A stretch of 37,067 nt of DNA from an uncultured Bacteroidaceae bacterium. Its GTDB lineage: Bacteria > Bacteroidota > Bacteroidia > Bacteroidales > Bacteroidaceae. How positions within the stretch are numbered: the stretch's first letter is position 1; every line of letters begins with the position of its first letter. The position numbers and the translations under genes are program-made. This document shows positions 5,282 to 36,807 of this stretch, in pieces. The notes beneath the pieces are model-generated. The model worked only from the letters and a program-made list of their open reading frames with translations. It ran no database searches and was not told where the DNA came from. The stretch covers positions 1 to 37,067 of the forward strand of contig CAJOLR010000014.1 in the NCBI GenBank assembly GCA_905235565.1, in the 5' to 3' direction.

Positions 5282-7429
5282 TCAGTCATCATCATCCAGA
5301 CTCCCCTTTTCCACATCGCGGGTATTCATCTTGCGGCCCTTTGAGAACTTAAGGCTCAGAGTGCAGTAGAATGTCCTGCCTGGGCTGGTAGTACCGTAGT
5401 GCAGTCCGTGTGGGGTGGTCTCCTTATAATCAAGTATATTGTCAATGCCGGCTTCAACACGCCACGTCATACCGTTCTTGCCGCGGCCCAGGTCATGGGT
5501 GGTGGTAAGTTTCCATATCTGATATGGCTTGCCGTTGCCGTTGTTCTGATAATAGCGTGTGCTGCTGGCGCGCCCGTAAAGGCCGATGCCCATGCGGTAA
5601 GCGTCATTATAGCGGTGCTGCCAGGTTCCGTACAGATTGCCTTTGTGGTGAGCCATACCGTCAATGGTCACTTCACTGAGACGGCTGTGCTTGGTGTCAT
5701 AAACATGCGCCTTGGTATCAAGCCAGCTGTATGATCCGCCCAGGGTGATATCGGACGTAATGCGCCAGGTCAGCGAAGCGTCAATACCCATGGTGCGGGC
5801 ATCCTCCATGTTCATGTACATTCGCGGGGTAACCTGACCGCTGCCGTCGCCCATATATTCAGGCGCCTCGCCTGCAGGAATCTGGCTCAGTGGTACATTT
5901 ACCAGGGTGATCATGTTGTACAGCTCATTGCGGTAGCCGGTGACGGATGCCGAAAACCCTCCGCGGCTGAATTCCACTCCGGCCGACAGGTAATCGGATG
6001 TCTGGGGCTTGAGGTCAGGGTTGCCCATATAAAAGAATGTGGTGGCGCCCATGGTGCGCAGATAGTGGTAACCCTGCTCCTTGGGAGTGGGCGATTTGAA
6101 TCCGCGGCTCCAGCCGGTACGGATCCTCAGGTCTGCCACCTTGAACATGGCGCTTATCTTGGGCGTGGCATGGAATCCGAACGCCTTGTTCTCAATAAGG
6201 CGTATTCCGGCAGTGATGTTGAGCCAGTTTACTCCGGTATACTCATCCTGCAGATAAAGGGCAGTGGTCCAGTCATCGGCCCGTCCTCCCTTTACGCGCA
6301 TTGGGGCGTGCAGATAATCAAAACGGTACTCGGCGCCGGCACTGAGCAGATTCCCGTAGGGCAGACTGAAAACGCCCTTGAGCTCCGCCATAGTGCGCTG
6401 CTGGTCACTCTGCAGATGCTCCTGATCCGGGAAATAGGGATAGTATGGGGTGTATTTGCCGTTTGGGTCATATCCTTCCTCAAGAGTGGTATCGGTGTAG
6501 TGATAGTAGTAGGCGTGGCGGTCCCAGCTTATATCCAGCGTAATGCGGTCTGTCCCCTTCAGCTTATATTCCGATCCAAACGATGCGCCTGCATCACGGT
6601 ATTTCATATCGAAAGTGTTGACATCACATGATGGGTGACGACCGTTGGTGGGGCGGAATATGCGCTTACGGTACAGGTATCCGTCGGCCTCAAAGGAGAG
6701 CCGGTCCGATGGGGCGTAGGTGATGCGCTCTCCAATCTGTCCGTTGGTGTACATGTTGACCGTCTTGTTGCGCGAATCAAATATGTGATACTCAGTCTGG
6801 GCAGGGTCCTCCTCGGCTGTGTTCTGCCAGCCGTCGGTGTGCTGCATCTGGAATGTGGTGAGCGATGTGAACTTGCCCACACTGAACCCTATGCTGTTGT
6901 GCTGGCGCAAATCCATGTATGATCCGCCGCGGGTGGTGTTCTCCAGATAGAGGGCCTGGTCATCGTGACGGCGGGTTATGACATTGATTACGCCGGTCAT
7001 TGCATCGCTTCCGTAGAGCGCGCTGCCTGCACCTTTCACTATCTCAATATGGTCTATGTTGTGCGGGTCAATGCGTCCCAGGTCATTCTCACCGCCGTTG
7101 TCGCCGTTAAGGCGCTTGCCGTCAATCATTATCAGGATGTAGTTGTTTCCCAGTCCGTTCAGGGTCATCTGGCTGCCCATATCACCGGCATTGAAATCAA
7201 AACCGGCGCTTAGCTGGGACAGGATGTCCTCAAACGATGCGGCTCCCAACTGCTCAATCTGGCGTCGTGATATGATCTCGGTCTGGACCGGAACATCCTT
7301 AAGCATATGGGGCGTGCCTGTTGCTGTCACAACAACTTCTTCAAGTTTTTCTGACAGAGTGGTCTCGTTCTGTGCCGAAAGCGGCAGGGAACAGGTCAAG
7401 ACCAGTAATGCAAGCGCCCCCTTTCTCAT
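5282..7429 (-). CDS. btuB: TonB-dependent outer-membrane receptor, BtuB-like
   Basis: This is a 715-residue receptor. A signal peptide ends near residue 19 (LPLSAQ); EEVVVTATG near residue 31 is the TonB-box region; a plug domain with VPVQTEIISRRQIEQLG, YILIMIDGKRLNG, and GSALYGSDAMTGVINVITRR follows; the rest is barrel. It has no N-terminal carboxypeptidase-like domain, unlike its neighbour. The start overlaps the stop of the upstream receptor gene by 4 bases (ATGA), indicating translational coupling. Oddly, the usual terminal aromatic beta-strand (TFYCTLSLKFS) is followed by about 15 polar residues ending DDDD instead of stopping at the barrel. Riboswitch context points to corrinoid uptake. 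Confidence 0.9.
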   Translation of the reverse strand: MRKGALALLVLTCSLPLSAQNETTLSEKLEEVVVTATGTPHMLKDVPVQTEIISRRQIEQLGAASFEDILSQLSAGFDFNAGDMGSQMTLNGLGNNYILIMIDGKRLNGDNGGENDLGRIDPHNIDHIEIVKGAGSALYGSDAMTGVINVITRRHDDQALYLENTTRGGSYMDLRQHNSIGFSVGKFTSLTTFQMQHTDGWQNTAEEDPAQTEYHIFDSRNKTVNMYTNGQIGERITYAPSDRLSFEADGYLYRKRIFRPTNGRHPSCDVNTFDMKYRDAGASFGSEYKLKGTDRITLDISWDRHAYYYHYTDTTLEEGYDPNGKYTPYYPYFPDQEHLQSDQQRTMAELKGVFSLPYGNLLSAGAEYRFDYLHAPMRVKGGRADDWTTALYLQDEYTGVNWLNITAGIRLIENKAFGFHATPKISAMFKVADLRIRTGWSRGFKSPTPKEQGYHYLRTMGATTFFYMGNPDLKPQTSDYLSAGVEFSRGGFSASVTGYRNELYNMITLVNVPLSQIPAGEAPEYMGDGSGQVTPRMYMNMEDARTMGIDASLTWRITSDITLGGSYSWLDTKAHVYDTKHSRLSEVTIDGMAHHKGNLYGTWQHRYNDAYRMGIGLYGRASSTRYYQNNGNGKPYQIWKLTTTHDLGRGKNGMTWRVEAGIDNILDYKETTPHGLHYGTTSPGRTFYCTLSLKFSKGRKMNTRDVEKGSLDDDD

Positions 7430-9669
7430 TTCTTAAGTCTGATGGCCAGGCTGACATATACCGAGCGGCCAGGGTTGATGGTTGAGAAATTGGTGTTCCA
7501 TGGCCTGGTGTCACGCTCGTTAAACAGATTCTCTATACCGATACCGGGCTCGATTATGTAGTCCTCGATAAGGAATGTGTGCTTGGTGTTGAGGTCCCAC
7601 TGGCTGTAACCGGGAGCATATCCGTATGTGCTGGAGTAGCGCTCGCCCTGCATGTGGCCGTTCAGGCTTACGTTGAGGTGGTAACCGCCCCAGTCATGGT
7701 CCCAGCGCAGGGTAGCGTTGCCGCTGTGTTTTACGCTCTTGTCAACCGGATTTGACTTGCCGTCACTCTCAGCCTTGGAGTCTGTATAGATGTAGCTGCC
7801 GGCCAGGTTGATGCCGCCTCCTACATACACGTTGGCATTCACGCTGATGCTCTTGATATTCGCTTTGTCAATATTGTCACGCTGGCGTATGGTCTTGAAT
7901 TCGGCATGCAACTCGTCATATCCCATTGCAGTGATTTCGGCATCGGAGAGGACACGGTAGTTGATCATGTCGGTAATGTCATTGAGCACACCTGTTACGG
8001 ACAAAGAAAGCCTTTGGGTGGCGTATTCGGCATTGAGTGATGCATAACGGCTCTTCTCGGGCTTGAGGTCACGATTGCCAACGGTCGCACGGCTGGCTGT
8101 CTTGGTCTGGTCGGTCGCAAATATCTGACTCAGGGTGGGAGAGCGGTATCCTGTTGCCCACGATGCCCTGAACCTGAAACTGCCCGGCTTGTACATGAGT
8201 GAGAAATCGGGTGTGGCATGACTCTTGAAATTCTCGTTGTACAGGTATCTGACTCCTGCCACAGCCTGCAGGTTCTCAGTAATGGAAAGCTCGTCCTGCA
8301 TGAATGCGGCTGCGGTGAACATGCTTTCAAAGCTTATGTTGTCAGTCTCCGAGCGCAGCTGCTCATTGATATACTGAATACCCACTGAAACCTTGTTCAT
8401 GTTATCCGGCTTGAGTATAGCCTTGATTTTGCCGTCATAGTAATGGGTCTCCTTGCGTTTCTGGAGGTCACCGGGCATCTGGCTGCCGCTCTTGAGGAAA
8501 TAACGGTATGACGATGTAAAGTTGTCATTGTAGAAGTCGGCCTCCAGATATGCCTTGGGGCTTATCATGTAATTGGCGCTTGCTCCGTACAGCCAGGTTA
8601 CATGGTTGAGGTCGTATGTGTATGCCTGGGTCTCCTTGTATATGTAGTTGCCGTCGGTATCCTTATCGGATGACTTCTTGAAATACTTGGCGGTCTGGGG
8701 GCGGTGGGTGTCATAGACGTTGTAGTTGCCGCGGACCGATACGTCCAGTTTGTCACTGAACCTGTATGTGAAACTCTGGCTGATGTTGTCCTGTGTATAG
8801 CCTGCCGACATGGGGCGGCCGGTCTTGTAACCCTCCTCGTCTATGTCATTGACCTGCCAGTTGTCTGCCTCCTTACGCTGGTACGATGTGCTTGATGAGA
8901 ACTTGCCGGTATTGATGTCTGCGTCGATGCTCTCGGTAAAACGGCCGTGGCTTGTATAATGGGTGTAGTTGGTCACTCCTACGCCGTTGTTTGAATCGTC
9001 GGTAATGATGTTTATCACACCGCCTATGGCCTCGCTTCCGTAAAGGGCCGATGCGGCACCGCTCTGAATCTCAATGCGTTTGATATTTGATGCGCTGATG
9101 CGGTTAAGACGCTGGTCGCCTCCCAGACGGTGCCCGTTCTCCATCACTATCATGTAATCCTGACCTGTTCCGTTAAGGTTAAGGAAGGTTCCCATGCCGT
9201 TGGTTACGGTGGTTATGTTGGGCATGAGCCGGGTCAGGGCCTCCTCGACCGATGTCACTCCTGCATTCTGGATATCCTTGGCGGTTATCACCTGGATAGG
9301 GACGGGAGAGTTTGACATACGGCGATGTGTTCCGGTTCCTGTAACCACCACCTGCCCAAGGTTGATGTAGCTCTCATGCATCTTGATGATTATGGCGTTG
9401 TCGGCTGATGTGGCCGTATAGTCGGCCGGCAAATACGATACATGAGTTATCCTGATGCGGTAGTTTTCCTGTCGGGGCAGATTCCTGAGAGAAAACTCAC
9501 CCTTGCTGTTGGTCGACGTGCCGGACAGGCTGTGATCAACACGGATGTTTGCACCCTGGATGGGCTTGCCGCTTTCAGCATCAAGTACAATACCGCTTAC
9601 TGTTACCTGGCTCCATGCCGGTACAACCATGCACAGCGATACTATAGAAAGAAAGATCTTCTTTAGCAT
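7426..9669 (-). CDS. btuB: TonB-dependent receptor with carboxypeptidase-like N-terminal domain, BtuB-like
   Basis: This 747-residue outer-membrane receptor is the first gene after the riboswitch. A signal peptide (to about PAWSQ, residue 21) is followed by a CarboxypepD_reg-like domain (VSGIVLDAESGKPIQGANIRV, residues about 25-105), a TonB-box-like VVVTGTG near 107, a plug domain with GSAASALYGSEAIGGVINII-type sequence, and a barrel ending in an IRLKK strand. It is clearly diverged from the second receptor, so the pair may recognise different corrinoids, as described for multiple BtuB proteins in gut Bacteroides. It lies about 60 bases downstream of the riboswitch aptamer. Confidence 0.9.
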   Translation of the reverse strand: MLKKIFLSIVSLCMVVPAWSQVTVSGIVLDAESGKPIQGANIRVDHSLSGTSTNSKGEFSLRNLPRQENYRIRITHVSYLPADYTATSADNAIIIKMHESYINLGQVVVTGTGTHRRMSNSPVPIQVITAKDIQNAGVTSVEEALTRLMPNITTVTNGMGTFLNLNGTGQDYMIVMENGHRLGGDQRLNRISASNIKRIEIQSGAASALYGSEAIGGVINIITDDSNNGVGVTNYTHYTSHGRFTESIDADINTGKFSSSTSYQRKEADNWQVNDIDEEGYKTGRPMSAGYTQDNISQSFTYRFSDKLDVSVRGNYNVYDTHRPQTAKYFKKSSDKDTDGNYIYKETQAYTYDLNHVTWLYGASANYMISPKAYLEADFYNDNFTSSYRYFLKSGSQMPGDLQKRKETHYYDGKIKAILKPDNMNKVSVGIQYINEQLRSETDNISFESMFTAAAFMQDELSITENLQAVAGVRYLYNENFKSHATPDFSLMYKPGSFRFRASWATGYRSPTLSQIFATDQTKTASRATVGNRDLKPEKSRYASLNAEYATQRLSLSVTGVLNDITDMINYRVLSDAEITAMGYDELHAEFKTIRQRDNIDKANIKSISVNANVYVGGGINLAGSYIYTDSKAESDGKSNPVDKSVKHSGNATLRWDHDWGGYHLNVSLNGHMQGERYSSTYGYAPGYSQWDLNTKHTFLIEDYIIEPGIGIENLFNERDTRPWNTNFSTINPGRSVYVSLAIRLKK

Positions 9670-9703: not shown

Positions 9704-9730
9704 CCCGGAGCCTTAGTCCTGTAATAAAAA

Positions 9731-9912
9731 TGATGCGGCAGGTTTCCTGACTTGGTCCCTCCCTGGAGTGCCTTCCCGCCCGTCCTTTTTATTAAGCAGT
9801 GGCAAATCGATATCTCCGGGATATGGTGGACTTTACAGTAGCGGGCACTGTTCCGGATTCTCACCGGATTCCCTCTATGCTGTCACCGCGGGTGGCAGCG
9901 TCACCGTATCGG
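9731..9912 (-). ncRNA. Cobalamin riboswitch aptamer
   Basis: The minus strand carries the B12-box GCCACTG (plus-strand 9797-9803), the conserved GGGAATCCGGTGAGAATCCG core (9853-9873) followed by AACAGTGCCCGCTACTGT, and the closing GGCAGG-type segment near 9735. These match the cobalamin riboswitch class. Binding of adenosyl- or other cobalamin to the nascent transcript should shut down the downstream receptors, chelatase and importer. Confidence 0.96.
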
Positions 9913-9916
9913 AGTG

Positions 9917-9924
9917 CAAATTTA
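9917..9924 (-). promoter_or_regulatory. -7 box for the cobalamin uptake operon
   Basis: The minus strand reads TAAATTTG, a perfect fit to the Bacteroidota TAnnTTTG box, immediately upstream of the riboswitch. No TTTG at the usual -33 spacing was seen, so the upstream element is weak. Confidence 0.55.
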
Positions 9925-26827: not shown

Positions 26828-29779
26828 ATGGAGGAGAAAGACAATCATCATCCCGAACTCATGGCCCGACGTATCCGCCGGATACTGCTGGTATGCAACA
26901 ATTATGACAGCTACTCACTCGAGGAGGACGGCCATATCGAGGCGCAGATTGCACAGGACTATGCCGAACTCAACCTGAGTAATCCGCCTGACATAATCCG
27001 CGTGGAGACAACCGTTGAGGCGTTGGAACTGGCCCGTACTGATACATCGTTTGATCTGGTCATAACCATGTACAACGTGGGCGAGGTTGATGTGTTTGAA
27101 TTCTCCAAGCGCATGAAGCAGATTGCTCCCGATACCCCCATAGTCCTGCTGGCCACATTCTCACGTGAGATATTCAACCGCATGAAGGACCGCACGGGCA
27201 GCGCCATAGACTGGTTCTTCTGCTGGAATAACTCAACCGACCTGATGATTGCCATCATCAAGCTGCTGGAGGACCGCATGAATGCCGAGCATGACATACT
27301 GGAAGAGGGAGTGCGCGCCATACTGCTTATAGAGGATTCCGTGCGCTACTATTCAACCTATCTGCCGGTGCTTTACAAACTGGTGCTGCAGCAGAACATA
27401 GAGTCCATCCGCGATACCCTGAACGAGAAACAGCAGACCCTGCGCAAGCGCTCGCGCCCCAAGATACTCATGGCCACCTGTTATGATGATGCCGTGGAAC
27501 TGTACGAGCGCTACAAGCAGAACATACTGGGAGTGATATCGGACATAGGATTCGTGATACATAAGGACGATGCACCCGAGCAGGAGAAACTGGATGCAGG
27601 TATAGACCTGGTAAACCATATCCATGCCGACAATCCCACCATGCCCATACTGATGCAGTCATCGCAGGAGAGTATGCGCGAGGTGGCCGAGCAGTTGGGA
27701 GTGGGCTTTGTGGTAAAGACCTCCAAGACCTTGACTCATGACCTTTCAGAATACATAGGCCGTGAGTTCGGATTCGGTGATTTTGTGGTGACTGATCCGG
27801 TTACGGGCGAGGAGTTGCTGCGTGCCAGTGACCTTTACGGATTCGAGAAGATAGTAAAGAACATATCGGACCGCGATTTCCGCCGTCTTAGTGACAAGAA
27901 CTACATATCACGCTGGCTCTTTGCGCGCGGTCTGTTCGCGCTGGGCAAGGAGCTGCGTCCGCTCACCATCCACAACGATGCCGAGCTGCCGGAGATACGC
28001 CGTATCAACCTCAAGATGATACATGATTTCCGTAACAACCAGGGAGTAGGCGTGGTGGCCAAGTTTGATCCCGCCACCTATAACGACACCATAAGGTTTG
28101 CCCGTCTGGGTAACGGCTCACTGGGCGGAAAGGCCCGCGGTCTGGCATTCCTTAACCATATCCTGGTCAAGTATGACCTGTATGACAAATGGGAGGATGT
28201 CCGTATAACCACTCCCCGCACGCTGGTAATAACCACCGAGTATTTTGACCGTTTCATCATAGACAACGGCCTGCAGTATGTCATAAACTCGGACATATCG
28301 GATGATGAGATACTGGCCGAGTTTGTGGCGTCAAGTCTGCCTCGGGACCTGATTGACAACCTGAAGGTATTCATACACAATATCCGCAAGCCGCTGGCCG
28401 TGCGCTCATCATCCAAATTAGAGGACTCTTATTATCAGCCCTTTGCCGGAGTCTATTCAACATACATGATTCCGCGCACCGATAATGAGGACCAGCAGTT
28501 GCGCCTGCTCTCCAAAGCCATCAAGAGCGTCTATGCATCAATATTCTTTGCATCGTCACGTAGCTACATAACCGCTACGGCCAATGTGATTTCCGAGGAG
28601 AAGATGGCCATCATACTGCAGGAGATATGCGGCAGCAGTGACCAGGGATATTTCTTCCCCACGCTGTCAGGCGTAGCCCGCTCCGTCAACTTCTACCCCA
28701 TAGGGCACGAGAAGGCCGAGGACGGAATCGTGAAGGTGGCCTTCGGTCTGGGCAAGGCTGTGGTTGACGGTGACCAGGTGCTCCGTTTCTCGCCCAAGTA
28801 CCCCAAGCACGTGCTTCAGACATCGACCGTGGAGCAGACCATGACCGAGACCCAGAAGTCCATGTTCGCGCTCAACCTCAAGCCCGAGAAGTTCACCACA
28901 TCAATCGATGATGCCGTAAACCTGGAGCGCATACCCATTGCAGACTGCGAGAAGTTCCGCAACCTTAAGCATGTGGTCTCCACCTTTGACCTGGAGAACC
29001 AGCGTATGGTGGATTCGGCATATCCCACAGGTCCCAGGTTCGTCACTTTTGCCCAGATGCTCAAGTACAAGACATTCCCGCTGGCCGAGATTGTGGACGA
29101 GCTGCTTGACATAGCCCGCCGTGAGATGAAATGCGGCGTTGAGATAGAGTTTGCGGCTGATATAGACCGCGGCGGCGACAAGAACAAGCTGCCCAAGTTC
29201 AACGTGCTGCAGATAAGACCAATATCGGTCGATAGCCGCAACGTTGACGTTGACTGGGATGAGATTGATACAGGTGGCGCAATCCTGCAGTCTGAGAGCG
29301 CATTGGGTACAGGCTGGATAAAGGGCCTGACCGATGTGATTTACCTCAGGATGGATGCGTTCGATACCCAGAAGACCGTCCAGATGGCCCGTGAACTGAC
29401 GGCAATGAACAGCCGCATGCGTAAGGAGGGTCGCAATTACGTGCTCATAGGCTACGGCCGCTGGGGCTCCAGCATACCGTCATTAGGCGTTCCCGTGCAG
29501 TGGGGCGATATTTCAGAAGCAAAGGTGATAGTGGAGTGCAGCCTGGAGAATTTCCGCGTGGATCCCAGTCAGGGCACCCATTTCTTCCAGAACCTGACAT
29601 CGTTCAACGCCGGCTACATCAACGTGGATCCGTACTCCGGCCGGGGCGATACATTTGATTATGAAGAGCTGGAAAAACTGCCCGCCATCGAGGAGACCGA
29701 GTTCCTGCGTCACGTAAGGTTTGACCGCGAGCTTGAAATCTGCATTGACGGCCGCTCCAGCAAGGCTATGATAAAGTAA
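26828..29779 (+). CDS. Receiver-receiver-PPDK_N (pyruvate/PEP-binding ATP-grasp) protein
   Basis: This 983-residue cytoplasmic protein begins with two receiver-like domains. The first (about 15-150) has no aspartate at the expected acceptor position (DLVITMYNV). The second (about 165-325) keeps an acidic pair (LLIEDS), an acceptor-position Asp239 (VISDIGF) and a lysine (VVKTSK). From about 430 onward it matches the N-terminal ATP-grasp domain of pyruvate phosphate dikinase/PEP synthase, with LAVRSSSKLEDSYYQPFAGVY near 520 and LIGYGRWGSS near 877. The phosphohistidine swivel domain and the PEP/pyruvate TIM barrel are absent, so it cannot run the full PEP synthase cycle alone. Often annotated as PEP synthase; a phosphotransfer regulator is my preferred reading. 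Confidence 0.8.
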   Translation: MEEKDNHHPELMARRIRRILLVCNNYDSYSLEEDGHIEAQIAQDYAELNLSNPPDIIRVETTVEALELARTDTSFDLVITMYNVGEVDVFEFSKRMKQIAPDTPIVLLATFSREIFNRMKDRTGSAIDWFFCWNNSTDLMIAIIKLLEDRMNAEHDILEEGVRAILLIEDSVRYYSTYLPVLYKLVLQQNIESIRDTLNEKQQTLRKRSRPKILMATCYDDAVELYERYKQNILGVISDIGFVIHKDDAPEQEKLDAGIDLVNHIHADNPTMPILMQSSQESMREVAEQLGVGFVVKTSKTLTHDLSEYIGREFGFGDFVVTDPVTGEELLRASDLYGFEKIVKNISDRDFRRLSDKNYISRWLFARGLFALGKELRPLTIHNDAELPEIRRINLKMIHDFRNNQGVGVVAKFDPATYNDTIRFARLGNGSLGGKARGLAFLNHILVKYDLYDKWEDVRITTPRTLVITTEYFDRFIIDNGLQYVINSDISDDEILAEFVASSLPRDLIDNLKVFIHNIRKPLAVRSSSKLEDSYYQPFAGVYSTYMIPRTDNEDQQLRLLSKAIKSVYASIFFASSRSYITATANVISEEKMAIILQEICGSSDQGYFFPTLSGVARSVNFYPIGHEKAEDGIVKVAFGLGKAVVDGDQVLRFSPKYPKHVLQTSTVEQTMTETQKSMFALNLKPEKFTTSIDDAVNLERIPIADCEKFRNLKHVVSTFDLENQRMVDSAYPTGPRFVTFAQMLKYKTFPLAEIVDELLDIARREMKCGVEIEFAADIDRGGDKNKLPKFNVLQIRPISVDSRNVDVDWDEIDTGGAILQSESALGTGWIKGLTDVIYLRMDAFDTQKTVQMARELTAMNSRMRKEGRNYVLIGYGRWGSSIPSLGVPVQWGDISEAKVIVECSLENFRVDPSQGTHFFQNLTSFNAGYINVDPYSGRGDTFDYEELEKLPAIEETEFLRHVRFDRELEICIDGRSSKAMIK

Positions 29780-29800: not shown

Positions 29801-29831
29801 TGCAGTCTTTTCTTTGATTGACGGACTATAT
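29801..29831 (+). promoter_or_regulatory. Putative ECF promoter P1, in front of the sigma fusion gene
   Basis: TGCAGTC (29801-29807), 15 bases, GGACTATAT (29823-29831). The same motif with identical spacing precedes the next two transcription units (31568 and 32226). The spacing suits an ECF -35/-10 pair. It overlaps a 10-bp perfect palindrome, TTTCTTTGAT (29809-29818) with ATCAAAGAAA (29830-29839). Confidence 0.7.
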
Positions 29832-29847
29832 CAAAGAAAGGCATTGT

Positions 29848-31545
29848 ATGCTTGCGATGAAGATAACACGGCTGATTGAACGGTGTAGACAAGGGGATGA
29901 AGATGCCCTTGGCGAACTTTATAAGGCATACGCTCCGAGGATGAAGAGCGTATGCCGACGTTATTTCCCGGATGAGCCTACGGTTGAGGATGTGTTGCAT
30001 GACGCTTTCATTATTATACTTACATCATTTGACAAGCTGAACGACACAGAGAAGGCGGAATCGTGGATGATGGCCATTGTAAGGAATGTGGCGTCAAAAT
30101 ACAAGGACAGGCAGAAGGCAAGGCCCACCGTGATGCTGGAAGAGACGGCCGAGGCGGAAACACTGGTAGCGGATGACGAACAGAACGTAGTGCGCGGGGT
30201 CCCGCTGGTGGAAGTGATGCGACTGATAGACAACCTGCCTGACGGATACGGGAAAGTGTTCCGTCTTTCTGTGTTCAAGGGGATGACCCATAAGGAGATT
30301 GCACATTCTCTTGGCATTGAGCCTCATTCCTCATCATCCCAGCTGGCACGTGCCAAGAAGCTGCTCCGCTCACTGATGTCAAAGTATTGGATCCTGCTGT
30401 TGGCGCTGATAGCCAACATCACGTTCTTTATGCTCAAAAAAGACAATCCTGTCCTGGATGAGGAGAAGCCTGGAACAGAAAGACACGACGGTGAAATACG
30501 GCAGCCTGCTGTGCCTGAGGAGAATGAGGGACCGAGGGTTGTGCGTACTCCTGTACAACTGGCGACTATTGCAGATGACACCCTGCAGACTCCTTCTGAC
30601 CAGAATAATGATAATGACACGCCACTTGAAACGGTTAATGTCCTTGCTGCTACTGAAGAGCAGGAAGATACCGTACAATCTGTTTTGAGGATAACAGACA
30701 ATCCAAAGGATGAAACCGCACAATTGACATTCCGGTATAAGGATGTCAAAACCACAGAAAATAAGAGATGGACGATGCTGCTTGCCTACTCCGGAGGGTT
30801 TGACAATCTTGACAGGTTGAATCAGCCTTACAGCATCAAACCGGAACGGAATGTCATGTGGCAGGATCCGGGCGGTCATAGTTCAACCATTCCGTGCAGT
30901 ATAGAGAACTGGAGCGACTATGCGGATTATCTGGCCAATAACCCGGGGGCAGTCAGTGCACAAACCCGAAGCAGTGTGATGCAGATTGCCATAAGGAACT
31001 CCAACATCCCCGGCAGCGAGGAGGACAGGATAAGACGTGACAGCCACCACAGTATGCCGGTAACCTGGTCTGTTTCCTTGAAGTACAGGCTTGATGACCG
31101 TTGGGGCATAGAGACAGGATTGAGCTACAGCTGTCTCAAGTCTGATTTTGAAATGGGCACAGGTGGCAATATGATAAACGAGCACCAGACTATCCATTAT
31201 ATAGGTGTGTCGGTTAAGGGTCTCTACAACTTGATTGAAAAGAAGCACTGGAGCCTGTACGGAGGTCTAGGAGTGACGACGGAGATACCGGTTTACTCAC
31301 AGATACGTTCTGACTACTATCTGGATGGACAGTACAAGGCAAGTGAAGAGACGGTCATAAGTGCTCCATGGCAGTTCTCCGGCACGCTGAGCGTAGGCCT
31401 GCAGTATAAGATAACACCGAGTATAGGACTGTTTACTGAGCCGGGCATGCAATACTTTATACCTACAGACAGCAAGGTTGAGACTTACCGCACGGAACAT
31501 CCGTTCTCATTAACACTGCCTGTGGGCTTGAGATTCACATGGTGA
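29848..31545 (+). CDS. ECF sigma factor fused through a membrane helix to an outer-membrane beta-barrel
   Basis: The 565-residue product contains, in order, sigma region 2 (about residues 5-80: DVLHDAFIIILTSFDKL, ESWMMAIVRNVASKY), sigma region 4 (about 123-178: LPDGYGKVFRLSVFKGMTHKEIAHSLG), one hydrophobic helix (about 180-196), a polar, acidic linker (about 200-300) and a barrel domain (about 305-565) with alternating strands such as WGIETGLSYS, WSLYGGLGVTTE and a final LPVGLRFTW. Bacteroidales often encode such a barrel, carried on a membrane-anchored anti-sigma-like protein, in a separate gene beside the ECF gene (recollection); here both are one frame with no interruption. A TTG at 29818 lies within the promoter and palindrome and is unlikely; ATG 29848 or 29857 is the start. 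Probable autoregulated envelope-sensing transcription factor. Confidence 0.85.
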   Translation: MLAMKITRLIERCRQGDEDALGELYKAYAPRMKSVCRRYFPDEPTVEDVLHDAFIIILTSFDKLNDTEKAESWMMAIVRNVASKYKDRQKARPTVMLEETAEAETLVADDEQNVVRGVPLVEVMRLIDNLPDGYGKVFRLSVFKGMTHKEIAHSLGIEPHSSSSQLARAKKLLRSLMSKYWILLLALIANITFFMLKKDNPVLDEEKPGTERHDGEIRQPAVPEENEGPRVVRTPVQLATIADDTLQTPSDQNNDNDTPLETVNVLAATEEQEDTVQSVLRITDNPKDETAQLTFRYKDVKTTENKRWTMLLAYSGGFDNLDRLNQPYSIKPERNVMWQDPGGHSSTIPCSIENWSDYADYLANNPGAVSAQTRSSVMQIAIRNSNIPGSEEDRIRRDSHHSMPVTWSVSLKYRLDDRWGIETGLSYSCLKSDFEMGTGGNMINEHQTIHYIGVSVKGLYNLIEKKHWSLYGGLGVTTEIPVYSQIRSDYYLDGQYKASEETVISAPWQFSGTLSVGLQYKITPSIGLFTEPGMQYFIPTDSKVETYRTEHPFSLTLPVGLRFTW

Positions 31546-31567
31546 TAATATTTCTTTTGTCTGGAAG

Positions 31568-31598
31568 TGCAGTCTTTCTGATACATGGGGGACTATAT
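31568..31598 (+). promoter_or_regulatory. Putative ECF promoter P2, in front of the lipoprotein gene
   Basis: TGCAGTC (31568-31574), 15 bases, GGACTATAT (31590-31598), identical in both elements and spacing to P1. It also overlaps an inverted repeat, CTTTCT (31574-31579) with AGAAAG (31603-31608). A TATTTTTG box at 31624-31631 fits the housekeeping -7 consensus but lacks a -33 partner, so dual control is possible. Confidence 0.7.
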
Positions 31599-31653
31599 GG
31601 ATAGAAAGTGAATCCAAAATGTTTATTTTTGCATTAGTTTGACAAAAGGAATT

Positions 31654-32214
31654 ATGAAAAAAGTGTTTGAAACCCGCGTGTGGACCATGGTGATAACCAT
31701 AACCAGCGTTCTGATGTCTGTGACGGCCTGCAGCCTTGACAGCGGCGAGCCGGAGAAACCTTTTACTACCGACCCTGTTGAGGGAGCGACAAAGCTTTAC
31801 GTATGTGGCATAGGTTCACCGGAAACAAAGGCTGCCGACAATATACTTTTTACGGAGCATGAGATTGAGTGGTTTGACGTGAACACACGTGAACTGTGTT
31901 TCAGCGGTATGGAGACACCCCTTAAAGAGAGGCTGAGCCTGCTGTCAGGTGTTGAGTTCCGTCTGGCTGACTCTGTGTTGTTTACCGGGAGCACGTTTGT
32001 AGGACTGGAATGTAGTCAGGCGTTTGATGACCTGGTGCTCTGCTACGGAAAGATGGACGGAGAGGTTGTTGATGACGGCAAGTATTATCTCTATGACTGC
32101 TACCCCTTGCAGTACATTGAGGATGAGAGAGTGCAGGCCAACAGGACCAGACGCGCATCACAGTGGAAGACATTCCTGAATTATCTTGAAAAAGCTGGAA
32201 AACTGAAGAAATAA
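31654..32214 (+). CDS. Small lipoprotein of unknown function, candidate sigma regulon member
   Basis: The ATG at 31654 follows AAAGGA and gives 186 residues; the TTG at 31639 is less likely. The N-terminus has a basic start, a hydrophobic stretch and the lipobox SVTAC, so it is an exported lipoprotein lipidated near residue 26. After it come Asp, Glu and Pro residues (SGEPEKP) of the kind seen in surface-exposed Bacteroidota lipoproteins. The rest is mixed alpha/beta by appearance, with a conserved-looking YYLYDCYPLQYI and a basic C-terminus (LEKAGKLKK). I do not recognise a family. Position directly after the sigma fusion and the shared promoter motif suggest it is an output or signal partner of that protein. 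Confidence 0.75.
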   Translation: MKKVFETRVWTMVITITSVLMSVTACSLDSGEPEKPFTTDPVEGATKLYVCGIGSPETKAADNILFTEHEIEWFDVNTRELCFSGMETPLKERLSLLSGVEFRLADSVLFTGSTFVGLECSQAFDDLVLCYGKMDGEVVDDGKYYLYDCYPLQYIEDERVQANRTRRASQWKTFLNYLEKAGKLKK

Positions 32215-32225
32215 TCATTTTTCCG

Positions 32226-32256
32226 TGCAGTAGTTCGTTGCAGTTTAGGACTTTAT
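32226..32256 (+). promoter_or_regulatory. Putative ECF promoter P3, in front of the radical SAM operon
   Basis: TGCAGTA (32226-32232), 15 bases, GGACTTTAT (32248-32256). It differs from P1 and P2 by one base in each element and has exactly the same spacing. It starts 12 bases after the lipoprotein stop and gives a leader of roughly 85 bases to the radical SAM gene. Confidence 0.6.
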
Positions 32257-32266
32257 AAGTGAAGAA

Positions 32267-32320
32267 GCTCCGTTCGGAGCATGCTATCAGAACTTCCGGA
32301 AGGATAGCATCAAGTTTTTT
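32267..32320 (+). terminator. Hairpin leader with terminator-like element
   Basis: Two hairpins lie just downstream of P3: GCTCC/GGAGC (32267-32280) and ATGCTATC/GATAGCAT (32281-32288 with 32303-32310), with an inner CTTCCGGAAG palindrome, followed by TTTTTT. It can terminate the lipoprotein transcript and, if P3 is used, would act as an attenuator in the radical SAM leader. An outer imperfect stem (32241-32250 with 32327-32335) could enclose both. Confidence 0.6.
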
Positions 32321-32347
32321 CACTAATCCTAACTGTAACGATTTTTT

Positions 32348-33409
32348 ATGTATTCTATCTATGACTATGCCCATAATGGGATTCTCTATCTGAACAATAT
32401 TCTTAGACCACGACACAAGCAGCTTTCACAGCTGATGATCTATTCCACCACGGCATGCCAGTCCAGATGCAGGCACTGCAATATATGGAAGAAGGAGGTA
32501 GAACACCTGTTGCTTGATGACATAATAAGGATCATGCAGAGCCGGTGCGTGACCAGACATACTACCGTGGGGCTGGAAGGCGGTGAGTTCATACTGCACC
32601 CTCAGGCCGATGAGATAATGGCCTGGTTCAGGGATAACCATCCCAATTATACGCTGCTGTCCAACTGCCTTGCTGCAGGTAAAGTGATTAACGCCGTACG
32701 GCGTCACAAGCCCAGACACCTGTACGTGTCGCTTGACGGTAATCGCGAGACATACCGGCGAATGCGCGGGCGAGACGGTTATGAACGGGTTATCAGGGTA
32801 GTGGAGGCACTGAAGAATGAGGTGCCGCTTTCGCTGATGTTCTGTCTGTCGCCCTGGAACACGTTTGATGACATGGAGTTTGTAATTGACGTGGCTAAAA
32901 GGTATGGTGTTGATGTACGTATTGGGATATACGGTACGTTGGCTTTCTTTGATACCACAAGCGGGCTGCTGGCTGCAGATGACTTTCTGAAACAGATTCC
33001 GCAGACGATTCACGAAACGAGCGAGAACTTTGACTTTTTGGCGCTTTACGACGAGTGGTGCAACGGGAACCTGCGTCTGCGTTGCCAGAGTATAATGAGC
33101 AGCCTGGTAATACACAGCAATGGTGATGTGCCGCTGTGCCAGAACCTTGATGTTATACTGGGAAATATACACAACCAGACGCTTGATGAGATATTCAACG
33201 GTGAACCATCATGCAAGACGCAGTGCCGATACTCATGCGATTGTAACGGATGCTGGATCAATTTCCACCGGAAGTATGACATTATACTAATGCGTAACCT
33301 GGAGCGGATAATGCCTAAATGGCTGATTGAGAAATTTTATGGACAATATCGGTGGACCAAGGATAACAGAATGACATACAGACAATTTCTAAAGGGGAAG
33401 AGACTATGA
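32348..33409 (+). CDS. Radical SAM enzyme with SPASM-like C-terminal cysteines
   Basis: This 353-residue protein has the [4Fe-4S] motif CQSRCRHC (residues 38-45, CxxxCxxC) followed by NIWKKE, a GLEGGEF glycine-rich strand, and a strand LYVSLDGNRETYRRMRG typical of the radical SAM barrel. The C-terminal part has further cysteines (LRCQS, PLCQN, then CKTQCRYSCDCNGCW near residue 300), consistent with an auxiliary-cluster SPASM or twitch-like domain. The reaction is unknown. It overlaps the Gfo/Idh gene by 4 bases, so the two enzymes likely act together. No small precursor peptide gene is evident nearby, which argues somewhat against peptide maturation and toward a sugar, lipid or small-molecule substrate. 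Confidence 0.85.
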   Translation: MYSIYDYAHNGILYLNNILRPRHKQLSQLMIYSTTACQSRCRHCNIWKKEVEHLLLDDIIRIMQSRCVTRHTTVGLEGGEFILHPQADEIMAWFRDNHPNYTLLSNCLAAGKVINAVRRHKPRHLYVSLDGNRETYRRMRGRDGYERVIRVVEALKNEVPLSLMFCLSPWNTFDDMEFVIDVAKRYGVDVRIGIYGTLAFFDTTSGLLAADDFLKQIPQTIHETSENFDFLALYDEWCNGNLRLRCQSIMSSLVIHSNGDVPLCQNLDVILGNIHNQTLDEIFNGEPSCKTQCRYSCDCNGCWINFHRKYDIILMRNLERIMPKWLIEKFYGQYRWTKDNRMTYRQFLKGKRL

Positions 33410-34440
33410 TAAACAAGTTGATTGAGCGGTATAAGAGAATGCGGACAGAGCACTACCTGAACCAGAGCTACAGCGGACAATATGCATTTGTAGGGATGGG
33501 ACAACATTCAATCTGCAACCTGTATCCGGTGCTAAGGTATCTTGGAGTCAGGTTGAAATATATATGTGTCACGTCTGAGCGCAAGGCCCGGCTGGTAGAG
33601 AGCCGGTTTCCCGATGTGAAAGCTACTGTCTTTCTTGATGAGATTCTGGATGATAAGGAGATTGACGGGATTTTTGTGTCAGCTGCCCCATCAGCTCATT
33701 TCCGTATTGCGTCAAAGGTGCTTCATAGCGGCAAGTCTCTGTTTATCGAGAAGCCTCCTTGTGAGACTCTGGATGAACTGGAGTTGCTGATAGAGCTCCA
33801 GGACATTAAGGGCTCCAATGTGGCGATGGTCGGGCTGCAGAAACGGTATGCACCTGCCATGCAGGTGCTAAAGAAACGGCTGCGCAGGGGGTATGTCACT
33901 AATTATGATCTTCACTACTGCACAGGGACTTATCCTGAGGGTAATGCCTTGCTTGATCTGTATATCCACCCGCTGGATATGGTGACATACCTTTTTGGCA
34001 AGGCCGAGGTTCTTGCATGCCGTAAGGTGGCTGACTGCTCATATATCCTGATGCTGCGCCACGGGAATACAGTGGGGACTCTTGAACTCTCTACTGCTTA
34101 CTCATGGAACGATGCCGAGGAAACTCTTTCAGTTTGCACAAGTTCAGGTATATTCCGCCTGGGGAATATGGAACGGCTGACATACCGGCCAAGACCCGTT
34201 AAACTGTTTTCCGTTCCTATGGAAAAAGTCTTACCGCATCATACGGTTGAGAAAGTTCTATTCCAGTCCTGTCATATTATGGGTGGGCTGATAAATAACC
34301 AGGTCTATACCCAAGGGTTTTACGGCGAGATTAAGGCGTTCCTTGATGCGGTTGAAGGTAAGAGTATTGACGTACGAAGCAGCCTCCAGATGATAAGAGG
34401 AACGTACGGATTGTTGTCGGATAGTGCTTGTTTTTCTTGA
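33406..34440 (+). CDS. Gfo/Idh/MocA-family oxidoreductase
   Basis: The 344-residue protein starts with a basic segment (about 25 residues), then a Rossmann fold with YAFVGMGQHSICNLYPVLR near residue 27. The family's EKP motif is in LFIEKPPCETLDELE near 115, and GLQKRYAPAMQVLKKRL near 143 is the usual start of the second domain. TYPEGNALLDLYIHPLDMVTYLFG carries the conserved Asp and His of the active-site region. These enzymes oxidise or reduce sugars and cyclitols with NAD(P). Coupling by ATGA overlap to the radical SAM gene suggests sequential steps on one substrate. There is no signal peptide, so it acts in the cytoplasm. Confidence 0.87.
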   Translation: MINKLIERYKRMRTEHYLNQSYSGQYAFVGMGQHSICNLYPVLRYLGVRLKYICVTSERKARLVESRFPDVKATVFLDEILDDKEIDGIFVSAAPSAHFRIASKVLHSGKSLFIEKPPCETLDELELLIELQDIKGSNVAMVGLQKRYAPAMQVLKKRLRRGYVTNYDLHYCTGTYPEGNALLDLYIHPLDMVTYLFGKAEVLACRKVADCSYILMLRHGNTVGTLELSTAYSWNDAEETLSVCTSSGIFRLGNMERLTYRPRPVKLFSVPMEKVLPHHTVEKVLFQSCHIMGGLINNQVYTQGFYGEIKAFLDAVEGKSIDVRSSLQMIRGTYGLLSDSACFS

Positions 34441-34661: not shown

Positions 34662-34853
34662 ATGCAGTTAGTCAGCAGCAATGGTATTGTGCTTCTTGAA
34701 CACGAGAAGCATATTAGAAAGAGAGCGGATAATTCAACTCTCCATGTCAGACGTTTGACGCAAGGCATAAAAAAAACCGTTCAACCGGAATTAATGAGTG
34801 AGGAGGATTTTTTCAGAAGAGTTATCAGGAACACAGAAGATGCCAACATTTAA
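34662..34853 (+). CDS. Small protein of unknown function upstream of the retropepsin-like gene
   Basis: A 63-residue, basic-to-mixed charge protein (EHEKHIRKRADN, RRLTQGIKK, then the acidic MSEEDFF segment). There is no signal peptide, membrane segment or cysteine. I do not recognise the family. The ATG lies 24 bases after a good -7 box, and the stop overlaps the next gene's start by 14 bases in another frame, so coupled translation is likely. It could be a partner, substrate or regulator of the protease; a chance ORF is less likely given promoter and overlap. Confidence 0.6.
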   Translation: MQLVSSNGIVLLEHEKHIRKRADNSTLHVRRLTQGIKKTVQPELMSEEDFFRRVIRNTEDANI

Positions 34854-35253
34854 GAAGCAATATCCTACTACCGTGGAAAGCGTTCTTACCGAGTGTGATA
34901 TTTACTCGGATGACGGTCATAAGTTTCATGCCGAATGTGCCATGTGGGATACAGGCGCTGACACCACTATTATTTCTTCACGCATAGTCCGCGAACTCCA
35001 GTTGCAACCGTATAAACAGGGAGGAATATCTGGCATTGGCGGTTCAACGGGTTCAAATGTTTATCTTGTACATGTTCATGTTCCTACTGGCGATGTGGTG
35101 ACATATGTTGAGGTCATGGAAAGTGATTTTGACGACATTGACATACTGATTGGTATGGATATTATTGTATTTGGGGATTTCCTCATTACCAACGCTGATG
35201 GCAAGACCACATTCCAGTTTCGTACACCAAGTCAGGGTGGGGTGGAACTTTAA
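34840..35253 (+). CDS. Retropepsin-like aspartic protease, single domain
   Basis: From the ATG at 34840 the product is 137 residues. The active-site motif DTGAD is at residues 37-41 (CAMWDTGADTTIIS), and IDILIGMDII at 100-109 matches the second conserved retropepsin motif; a glycine-rich flap-like GGISGIGGSTGS lies at 61-72. A single domain with one catalytic Asp must dimerise to be active, as in retroviral proteases. There is no signal peptide, so it is cytoplasmic. An upstream GTG at 34798 is in frame but adds poorly supported residues. Overlap with the preceding small gene suggests a two-gene unit. No other retroelement gene is near. Confidence 0.82.
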   Translation: MPTFKKQYPTTVESVLTECDIYSDDGHKFHAECAMWDTGADTTIISSRIVRELQLQPYKQGGISGIGGSTGSNVYLVHVHVPTGDVVTYVEVMESDFDDIDILIGMDIIVFGDFLITNADGKTTFQFRTPSQGGVEL

Positions 35254-35382: not shown

Positions 35383-36807
35383 ATGGTAACGTTCGTGATA
35401 GCTTTGATAGTCCTGGTGCTGGGCTATGTGTTCTACGGAAAATTCATTGAGCGTCTGTTTGGGGCCGATCCCAAACGTGAGGTGCCGGCTACGGCTATGG
35501 CCGACGGCGTGGATTATATTGCTATGCCCACGTGGAAGGCCTATATGATCCAGTTCCTGAACATTGCGGGTCTGGGTCCGATATTCGGCGCCATCATGGG
35601 TGCCAAGTTCGGTACGGCATCATACCTGTGGATTGTTTTCGGAACCATCTTTGCGGGTAGCGTGCATGACTATCTGTCGGGAATGATTTCATTGAGGCAC
35701 GGAGGAGAGAGCCTGCCGCAGCTGGTAGGGCGCTATCTGGGGTCATCGGTACAGAAGGTGTTCATGGTGTTCTCCATGATTCTGCTTGTGCTGGTGGGTG
35801 CGGTGTTCGTATCGCAGCCGGCCGATATACTGGTGCGTCTTACAGGCGGCGCTATAGGTATAAATACCTGGATTGCCATCATCTTTGTCTATTATCTGCT
35901 GGCCACACTCTTCCCCATTGACAAAATCATTGGCCGCTTCTATCCCATATTCGGTGCAGCGCTGCTGTTTATGGCAATCGGTATTATGATTGCGCTGTTT
36001 GTCAACCATCCGCCGCTCCCGGAGATGTGGAAGGGATTCGGAGTCAAGTATGACAAGAACCCCATATTCCCCATGATGTTCATATCCATTGCCTGCGGTG
36101 CCATAAGCGGATTCCACGCAACGCAGTCGCCCCTTATGGCCCGATGCATTACCAATGAGAGCCGGGGCAGGGTGGTGTTCTACGGCGCAATGGTATCCGA
36201 GGGTATCGTGGCCCTTATCTGGGCGGCCGCCGCAACGGCTTACTTTGGCGAGCACGGAACGGACTTTACCGCCGCTCAGATTGTGCTTGACATTTCCAAG
36301 ACCTGGCTGGGTAAGGTGGGCGGCATCCTGGCTGTTGTGGGTGTGGTCGCTGCGCCTATCTCATCGGGCGATACCGCTCTGCGTTCGGCACGTCTTATTG
36401 TGGCCGATTTCTTCAAGATCAGGCAGAAGTCCATAGGCAGCCGTTTGGCCATCAGTATCCCGCTGTTTGTAATCACCTTCTTTGCACTCTTCTACAGCCT
36501 GCGTGACAAGGAGGGATTCAATATAATCTGGCGTTACTTTGCGTGGTCCAACCAGACACTTGCGGTATTCACGCTGTGGGCTGTGACCGTTTATCTGACC
36601 AGACACCGTAAGAACGTGCTTGTTACGCTTATCCCGGCCATGTTCATGACCGTGGTAACAGTGACCTACATCTTCATGGCGCCCGAAGGATTCCGTCTGG
36701 CTCCGTGGATTGCCTATATCATTGCCGGCGTAACGGCATTGGCGTTCCTGGCTATTTATCTTACTTGGAAAAGTCGTTTTGACAAACAAAATATCGCAGA
36801 AAAATGA
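35383..36807 (+). CDS. cstA: Carbon starvation protein CstA family transporter
   Basis: The 474-residue protein has about 12-13 membrane segments. Family motifs are DGVDYIAMPTWKAYMIQFLNIAGLGPIFGAIMG (residues about 42-74), a VHDYLSGMISLRHGG stretch near 105, and GAISGFHATQSPLMARC near 243. CstA family members import peptides and, in E. coli, pyruvate. This short version without the long C-terminal extension is usual in Bacteroidota. It overlaps the downstream kinase-like gene by 4 bases (ATGA). Confidence 0.93.
   Translation: MVTFVIALIVLVLGYVFYGKFIERLFGADPKREVPATAMADGVDYIAMPTWKAYMIQFLNIAGLGPIFGAIMGAKFGTASYLWIVFGTIFAGSVHDYLSGMISLRHGGESLPQLVGRYLGSSVQKVFMVFSMILLVLVGAVFVSQPADILVRLTGGAIGINTWIAIIFVYYLLATLFPIDKIIGRFYPIFGAALLFMAIGIMIALFVNHPPLPEMWKGFGVKYDKNPIFPMMFISIACGAISGFHATQSPLMARCITNESRGRVVFYGAMVSEGIVALIWAAAATAYFGEHGTDFTAAQIVLDISKTWLGKVGGILAVVGVVAAPISSGDTALRSARLIVADFFKIRQKSIGSRLAISIPLFVITFFALFYSLRDKEGFNIIWRYFAWSNQTLAVFTLWAVTVYLTRHRKNVLVTLIPAMFMTVVTVTYIFMAPEGFRLAPWIAYIIAGVTALAFLAIYLTWKSRFDKQNIAEK

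Follow-up and report, generated by a model that had tools for sequence, protein, structure and literature searches.

Putative promoters shared by a Dma3-like sigma fusion gene and its neighbours in a Bacteroidaceae genome, with an inverted repeat around the promoter of the radical SAM operon

The closest described relatives of the system reported here are found in Bacteroides thetaiotaomicron. In the extracytoplasmic function (ECF) systems Das1/Dma1 and Das2/Dma2 of the ECF21 group, the anti-sigma factor spans from the outer membrane to the cytosol, and loss of dma2 causes its strongest changes in and beside its own operon and in genes of polysaccharide utilisation loci (PMC13088901). A further member of this dual membrane-spanning anti-sigma family, Dma3 (BT_2778, locus bt_2778-2779), carries a sigma domain of its own; its locus is upregulated in two dma mutants, its role is said to need further study, and the accessible passages of that report name neither a promoter motif nor a regulon for it (PMC13088901). 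BT2778 also appears in the iron-stimulon table of a transcriptome paper with a value of 2.3, the direction of which is not stated in the accessible passages (PMC10434189). Here we describe a Dma3-like locus in a 37,067-nucleotide stretch of DNA from an uncultured Bacteroidaceae bacterium (contig CAJOLR010000014.1 of assembly GCA_905235565.1; "the window" hereafter means this whole stretch). The sigma fusion gene, a small putative lipoprotein gene and an operon encoding a radical S-adenosylmethionine (SAM) protein and an oxidoreductase are each preceded by the same promoter-like element (sites 1, 2 and 3; Table 1). Very probably, the sigma domain of the fusion uses all three elements as its promoters, which would make the cluster a local, autoregulated regulon, and the element at site 3 is embedded in an inverted repeat.

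The product of the fusion gene matches Pfam Sigma70_r2 (E 2.1e-11) and Sigma70_r4_2 (E 1.2e-10) and scores above the cut-off of the NCBIfam sigma70-ECF superfamily, and both region 2 and region 4 of an ECF sigma factor are present. Its six most hydrophobic 19-residue windows all lie at about residues 172-195, counted from the ATG at 29857; a second in-frame ATG is found at 29848 and the frame is open from 29818. The predicted transmembrane helix is followed by 107 residues of which 73% are polar, proline or glycine, a tether by composition, and the C-terminus matches OMP_b-brl (29.9, cut-off 28.7) and OMP_b-brl_2 (29.4, cut-off 27), in both cases barely above the Pfam cut-off. An AlphaFold model built from four rows is of low confidence (predicted local distance difference test score 41, too low for a fold search), and its secondary structure, strands included, agrees with this reading of the domains. 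The predicted architecture (sigma domain, transmembrane helix, tether, beta-barrel) is of the Dma3 type. An N-terminal sigma domain, a transmembrane helix, a long tether and a C-terminal beta-barrel are common to Dma3 and the fusion in the window, whereas in Das1/Dma1 and Das2/Dma2 the sigma and anti-sigma factors are separate proteins rather than one polypeptide (PMC13088901). Homologues of the fusion with E <= 1e-40 occur in 71 of the 301 genomes of the family.

The initial annotation of the window had reported one motif at three places, each between a stop codon and the next gene, with differing spacers and with no further occurrence, and each of these observations was borne out. TGCAGTMN15GGACTWTAT matches at sites 1, 2 and 3 (29801-29831, 31568-31598 and 32226-32256), all on the + strand, and nowhere else in the window; 100 dinucleotide shuffles yielded no match. 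The whole assembly (2,207,173 bases in 91 contigs, 90.9% complete) likewise contains TGCAGT-N16-GGACTWTAT at these three places only, with none for the reversed control. A search of the same assembly found no place with exactly one mismatch beyond the three exact sites, and with up to two mismatches there were 22 places versus 11 for the reversed control, the 19 extra ones all having two mismatches. Among 37 genomes of the genus, four (G000, G011, G025, G035) contain the exact pattern, in all four beside a homologous fusion. Duplication of a single block is ruled out as an explanation because the spacers of the three sites differ and because site 1 of the close relative L045 has varied independently, with another spacer and one altered -35 base next to a retained GGACTATAT. 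L045 and the window share 94-98% identity in each of the four cluster proteins, yet the DNA just upstream of site 1 in the window and L099 looks unrelated to that in L045. With the exact motif present in 4/37 genus genomes, the cluster may move as a block. A scan of the window for sigma-70 promoters, of a type that does not cover this promoter class, returned 8 candidates versus 7.4 in shuffles.

To place the element in a wider setting, we compiled a census of 72 loci (the window, L042, and 60 plus 10 further regions; not all fusion-homologue matches are included), which were oriented and searched upstream of each gene start for TGCAGTC(T/A)TT with at most two mismatches. This comparison of intergenic regions in relatives, which the initial annotation had proposed, placed a -35-like block before 68 of 71 fusion genes (62 without mismatch) and before most of the downstream genes, namely 36/36 radical SAM genes (24 without mismatch), 20/20 alternative methyltransferase genes (15) and 16/18 lipoprotein genes (16). 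Near-copies remain in these counts, the distinct 60-mers numbering 61 of 68 fusion sites, 31 of 36 radical SAM sites, 18 of 20 methyltransferase sites and all 16 lipoprotein sites. The sites with two mismatches include site 3 of the window itself, where TGCAGTAGTT departs twice from the family consensus TGCAGTC(T/A)TT, and two methyltransferase sites that could be chance. The block is strongly oriented: in these loci, 109 copies of the exact 10-mer TGCAGTCTTT lie on the strand of the fusion (101 at census sites) and a single copy lies on the opposite strand. Whereas the fusion in the window is followed by lipoprotein, radical SAM and oxidoreductase genes, a gene for a SAM-dependent methyltransferase replaces the radical SAM cassette after the fusion in L066-L071, L074, L092, L095, L096, L105, L106 and others; in L105 its product matches Methyltransf_23. 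L105 and L106, from two genomes of 5.2-5.6 megabases, have distant fusion homologues (24-36% identity, in pieces), and both the distant fusion and the methyltransferase-like gene that follows it carry the same -35 block.

The partner block, found at about the same spacing, is of three types: type A resembles GGACTATAT, type B TATCTATAT and type C CTCCTTTAAT. On a tree of 68 sigma domains these types require two changes, the minimum possible, and none of 200 shuffles did as well, with the proviso that near-copies aid the clustering of any label. Of 70 pairs formed by the promoter of a fusion and a downstream promoter of its locus, 63 agree in class. Two genomes, G207 (L059, L066) and G094 (L064, L071), each contain one A-type and one B-type fusion, and their downstream promoters carry the type of their own fusion; G086, with two B-type fusions, is uninformative on type matching. 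Such co-variation of the -10 block with the sigma domain is what would be expected of a sigma factor and its promoters, and a different regulator would hardly account for it. We also considered and rejected a pseudoknot in which AGTC (-35 block) would pair with GACT (-10 block), as types B and C have lost the complementarity but retain TGCAGTC.

The element is rare away from the fusions. TGCAGTCTTTN15CTNTA was found at 41 places in the 301 genomes versus 3 for the reversed control, and by position 32 of these hits map to fusion loci, the other 9 being elsewhere or unplaced. Radical SAM homologues, sought independently of the motif, were found in 44 of the 301 genomes. Among those outside the census whose surroundings were retrieved, the four that lie beside a fusion (L153-L156, the site of L153 being nearly a copy of that of L042) all have the motif; where they lie away from a fusion, with none on either strand for ~3.7-4.3 kilobases upstream (L145, L146, L148-L152), none of the seven has it, L151 and L152 being identical in their upstream sequence. 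L157, with only 88 upstream bases, was left out of the seven, and L158 and L159, which have both motif and fusion, were picked with a motif-containing pattern and are not counted. Upstream of four radical SAM genes with no fusion nearby (L146, L148, L149 and L150) we noted a TAxxTTTG-like sequence, as in housekeeping promoters of Bacteroidota.

A shared -35/-10 pair before the sigma gene and its neighbours that is rare elsewhere, as in a local regulon, is what these data show. Some observations nevertheless weigh against promoters of the fused sigma factor and a local regulon. Three fusions (L076, L102 and L113) have no motif within 110 bases upstream. The -10 class, defined after the sites had been seen and scored over related loci that are not independent, differs between fusion and downstream promoter in 7/70 pairs. 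Finally, the radical SAM gene L147 (G086:C93) has the motif and no fusion within 3.8 kilobases upstream; its genome encodes two fusions on other contigs, and L147 is a candidate target in trans. In L076, the 10-mer was seen ~1.3 kilobases upstream of the fusion. Judged by comparative genomics alone, the reading given in the initial annotation (promoters of the fused sigma factor, autoregulation and a compact regulon) largely holds, by placement, strand bias, the tracking of the sigma tree by the -10 type, the matching of type to each of the two fusions in two genomes, the lack of the motif at the seven radical SAM genes with no fusion nearby and the scarcity of matches elsewhere in the 301 genomes. 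That annotation had included neither the published Dma3 architecture nor the inverted repeat at site 3.

Site 3 has a further property. An inverted repeat encloses its -10 core within the loop: the -35/-10 spacer serves as the 5' arm, and the 3' arm stops just short of the start codon. At the radical SAM sites of relatives, too, the spacer pairs with the segment before the ATG, for instance ATTCGTTGCAGTTTC with GAAACTGCAACGAAT. Of the 36 radical SAM sites, 25 passed a duplex test (shuffle p <= 0.05), comprising 20/23 in the clade of the window and 5/13 outside it (L085, L088, L097, L108, L114), the latter with different stem sequences, and the ten stem types combined gave p 1e-5. Covariation was assessed in 13 of the 36 sites, all from the clade of the window and with duplicates dropped. 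The 14-base-pair stem pairs in 96.7% of cells versus 18-45% with one side slid, in rows that had been picked without inserts, deletions or foreign stems, a choice that favours structure. Three pairs have changed on both sides (C-G to G-C, G-C to A-U and A-U to U-A), and the number of cells paired, the number of double-changed cells and the covariation score each beat the shuffles (0/500 each). In L049 and in the lineage of the window the outer stem is kept around inserts.

Predicted folding agrees with these comparisons. We computed the cost of opening the start codon in an RNA that begins 30 bases before the -35 block and in one that begins 36 bases after the first -35 base. With this assumed start position, which is itself a point to be held against the comparison, opening costs a median of 13.6 kcal/mol more in the RNA begun upstream at the radical SAM sites (n=36), versus a difference with a median of 1.7, a 95th percentile of 7.6 and a maximum of 15.6 for 211 control starts of the same loci; 30 of the 36 sites exceed the control 95th percentile. 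When the 5' arms were swapped for those of other lineages (at most 12 per site), the difference was 2.2, and 34/36 sites exceed every swap. For the methyltransferase sites the difference is 6.6, with 9/20 above the control percentile and 6/20 above every swap. In the window, the predicted fold of RNA 32226-32360 has a free energy of -43.6 kcal/mol (z -5.0) and contains the outer stem 32235-32250/32327-32341, and in RNA from 32263 this outer stem is lost and the inner hairpins alone remain. Hiding of the start codon in upstream-initiated RNA alone is thereby predicted for the window and its clade.

We propose the following sequence of events. The -35 block TGCAGTC(T/A)TT would be read by region 4 of the fused sigma factor and the -10 block GGACTATAT by region 2. 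Once released or permitted by the envelope part of the fusion, the sigma domain would drive transcription of the fusion gene itself, of the lipoprotein gene and of the radical SAM/oxidoreductase operon. At site 3, RNA begun upstream would conceal the radical SAM start codon in a stem because the -35/-10 spacer is complementary to the segment just before that codon, and in the window genome the T6 following the stem might also terminate such RNA. RNA begun at the promoter would start inside the loop, lack the 5' arm and leave the start codon open, and the operon would be insulated from read-through and expressed by sigma-dependent initiation. What the comparisons show is the motif, its distribution, its co-variation with the sigma domain and the conservation of pairing in the clade of the window; from these we infer that the elements act as promoters and depend on the sigma factor, that site 3 is insulated and that the fusion undergoes a release step. 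Folding and covariation make it somewhat more probable than the opposite that the repeat at site 3 acts as an insulator, giving preference to transcripts initiated by the sigma factor through a translational block; termination perhaps adds to the insulation in lineages with a T run. Promoters together with a site-3 insulator are likely to be the best joint explanation of the data. The broader notion of a start-site-gated effector operon of a sigma factor that reaches across both membranes, in which the spacer doubles as a hairpin arm and translation depends on where transcription began, would extend to several genera of one family and is advanced tentatively, its chances falling a little short of even.

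A number of results speak against the insulator or limit its reach. Within the clade of the window, L042, L052 and L056 miss p 0.05, and outside it L083, L086, L087, L091, L093, L094, L100 and L103 fail the duplex test. The number of double-changed pairs does not stand out from the shuffles (77/500 reach it), nor does the number of pair types (301/500), and the T run after the 3' arm is missing in many relatives. The opening difference is above the control median at the fusion (4.5) and lipoprotein (3.7) sites as well, if less strongly. If the regulon is co-transcribed from site 1, what would be gained by insulating site 3 is unclear. The repeat is also not general to these promoters, because the duplex test is non-significant before the fusion gene (8/66, combined 0.26) and the lipoprotein gene (1/16, combined 0.51) and weak before the methyltransferase gene (2/20, combined 0.016). 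Site 1 of the window does have a 10-base-pair inverted repeat around its -10 block (29808-29839; TTTCTTTGAT/ATCAAAGAAA); an inverted repeat common to all three sites was nonetheless rejected, since that of site 1 is not kept in L045 and the fusion class is non-significant.

Four other explanations were weighed against promoters with a site-3 insulator. The one that survives best, unlikely as it is, accepts the fused-sigma promoters and takes the repeat at site 3 for merely the intrinsic terminator of the upstream gene, overlapping the promoter by chance. The repeat does follow the lipoprotein stop codon, and T5-T7 come after the 3' arm in the window, L047, L051, L062, L064 and L065. However, L048, L050, L057, L058 and others have no T run, the loop of ~14-18 bases or far more is atypical, and the arms hold their place relative to the -35 block, the -10 block and the ATG even where the stems differ (L085, L088, L097, L108). 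A terminator scan of the window (4 versus 3.4 in shuffles) could not list the site-3 repeat because it allowed loops of 3-8 only.

A still less probable idea is that the palindrome acts as DNA, negative supercoiling extruding it as a cruciform that opens the -10 block in its loop and helps the sigma factor to start. The position of the -10 core in the loop and the conservation of pairing rather than of exact sequence in the clade of the window would suit a cruciform. It fits poorly with a repeat that is clear at the radical SAM promoter only and not at the promoter of the fusion itself, and with a large loop that holds inserts in the lineage of the window and in L049; the short distance to the ATG is better explained by hiding of the start codon.

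It is very improbable that the motif is the operator of a DNA-binding repressor or activator, with the palindrome as a dimer site. Two fixed blocks at a fixed spacing, and a palindrome at one site, are features that an operator could have, but the -10-like block tracks the sigma clade, and also its own sigma at both fusions in two genomes, the palindrome varies by lineage and is not common to the three sites of one genome, and the location suits a -35/-10 pair with short leaders. Least credible of all is an RNA element such as a protein-binding leader in place of a promoter: the conservation of flank and loop at site 3, together with a stem that covaries, resembles an RNA motif, but most fusion and lipoprotein genes are preceded by these blocks and by no significant stem, TGCAGTC is constant while its partner block changes with the sigma factor, and the sole Rfam match in the window at gathering scores is a cobalamin riboswitch elsewhere.

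Table 1. Features of the sigma fusion cluster, with positions in the window.
Feature	Position	Strand	Remarks
Stop codons preceding sites 1-3	29779, 31545, 32214	+	next gene starts after each site
Site 1, promoter-like element of the sigma fusion gene	29801..29831	+	-35 TGCAGTC; -10 GGACTATAT at 29823-29831
Dma3-like sigma fusion gene	29857..31545	+	predicted sigma regions 2 and 4, transmembrane helix, ~107-residue polar tether, outer-membrane beta-barrel
Site 2, promoter-like element of the lipoprotein gene	31568..31598	+	-10 GGACTATAT at 31590-31598
Small putative lipoprotein	31654..32214	+	Cys after hydrophobic start; no match in Pfam or NCBIfam
Site 3, promoter-like element of the radical SAM operon	32226..32256	+	-10 GGACTTTAT at 32248-32256
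Inverted repeat, 5' arm TCGTTGCAGTTTAGGA	32235..32250	+	covers the greater part of the -35/-10 spacer and runs into the start of the -10 block
Lineage-specific extra loop sequence (window, L045, L099)	32257..32326	+	two hairpins, 32267-32280 and 32281-32310, closed by GTGAAGAA (32259-32266) pairing with TTTTTTCAC (32315-32323)
Inverted repeat, 3' arm TCCTAACTGTAACGA	32327..32341	+	followed by T6 (32342-32347) and ATG at 32348
Radical SAM / SPASM domain protein	32348..33409	+	domain matches
Gfo/Idh/MocA-type oxidoreductase	33406..34440	+	4-base overlap with radical SAM gene
Cobalamin riboswitch (Rfam RF00174, 93.6 bits)	9720-9923	-	upstream of open frame 7426-9669

Directly upstream of site 1 lies a 983-residue open frame (26828-29779) in which a PPDK_N nucleotide-binding domain was recognised, along with a response-regulator-like match that stays under the cut-off, and downstream of the cluster lie genes for a protein with a retroviral-type aspartyl protease domain (34798-35253) and a CstA-like carbon starvation protein (35383-36807).

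Parts of this arrangement have precedents. IS10/Tn10 is protected from outside promoters in a similar manner: RNA initiated upstream of the element folds over the start codon, and transcripts begun at its own promoter are translated, having no 5' arm. The proposal for site 3 is alike in that only RNA begun upstream would hide the start codon; it differs in that IS10 is a transposon, whereas site 3 would be a chromosomal, sigma-specific promoter whose spacer is itself the 5' arm. In the transposase 5' untranslated region of ISPpu9, a leader structure buries the ribosome-binding site and lowers translation, with relief by an antisense RNA, as against relief by start-site choice in the proposal for site 3 (PMC8450116). 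The Dma3 fusion architecture and autoregulated ECF regulons were already known, and what is new here is the inverted repeat around the site-3 promoter. In a search of titles and abstract openings we found neither TGCAGTC as an ECF promoter nor a Dma3 regulon, either of which could stand in the 2024 Dma1 paper or the ECF classification paper, nor a sigma promoter with its spacer as an arm of a start-codon hairpin.

Dma3-type proteins are thought to link the outer membrane with RNA polymerase as single polypeptides. A conserved promoter code and a short list of putative targets would make the role of Dma3 directly testable in B. thetaiotaomicron and its relatives, and the hairpin at site 3, if the proposal is true, would be a compact way for a gene to obey one sigma factor and ignore read-through.

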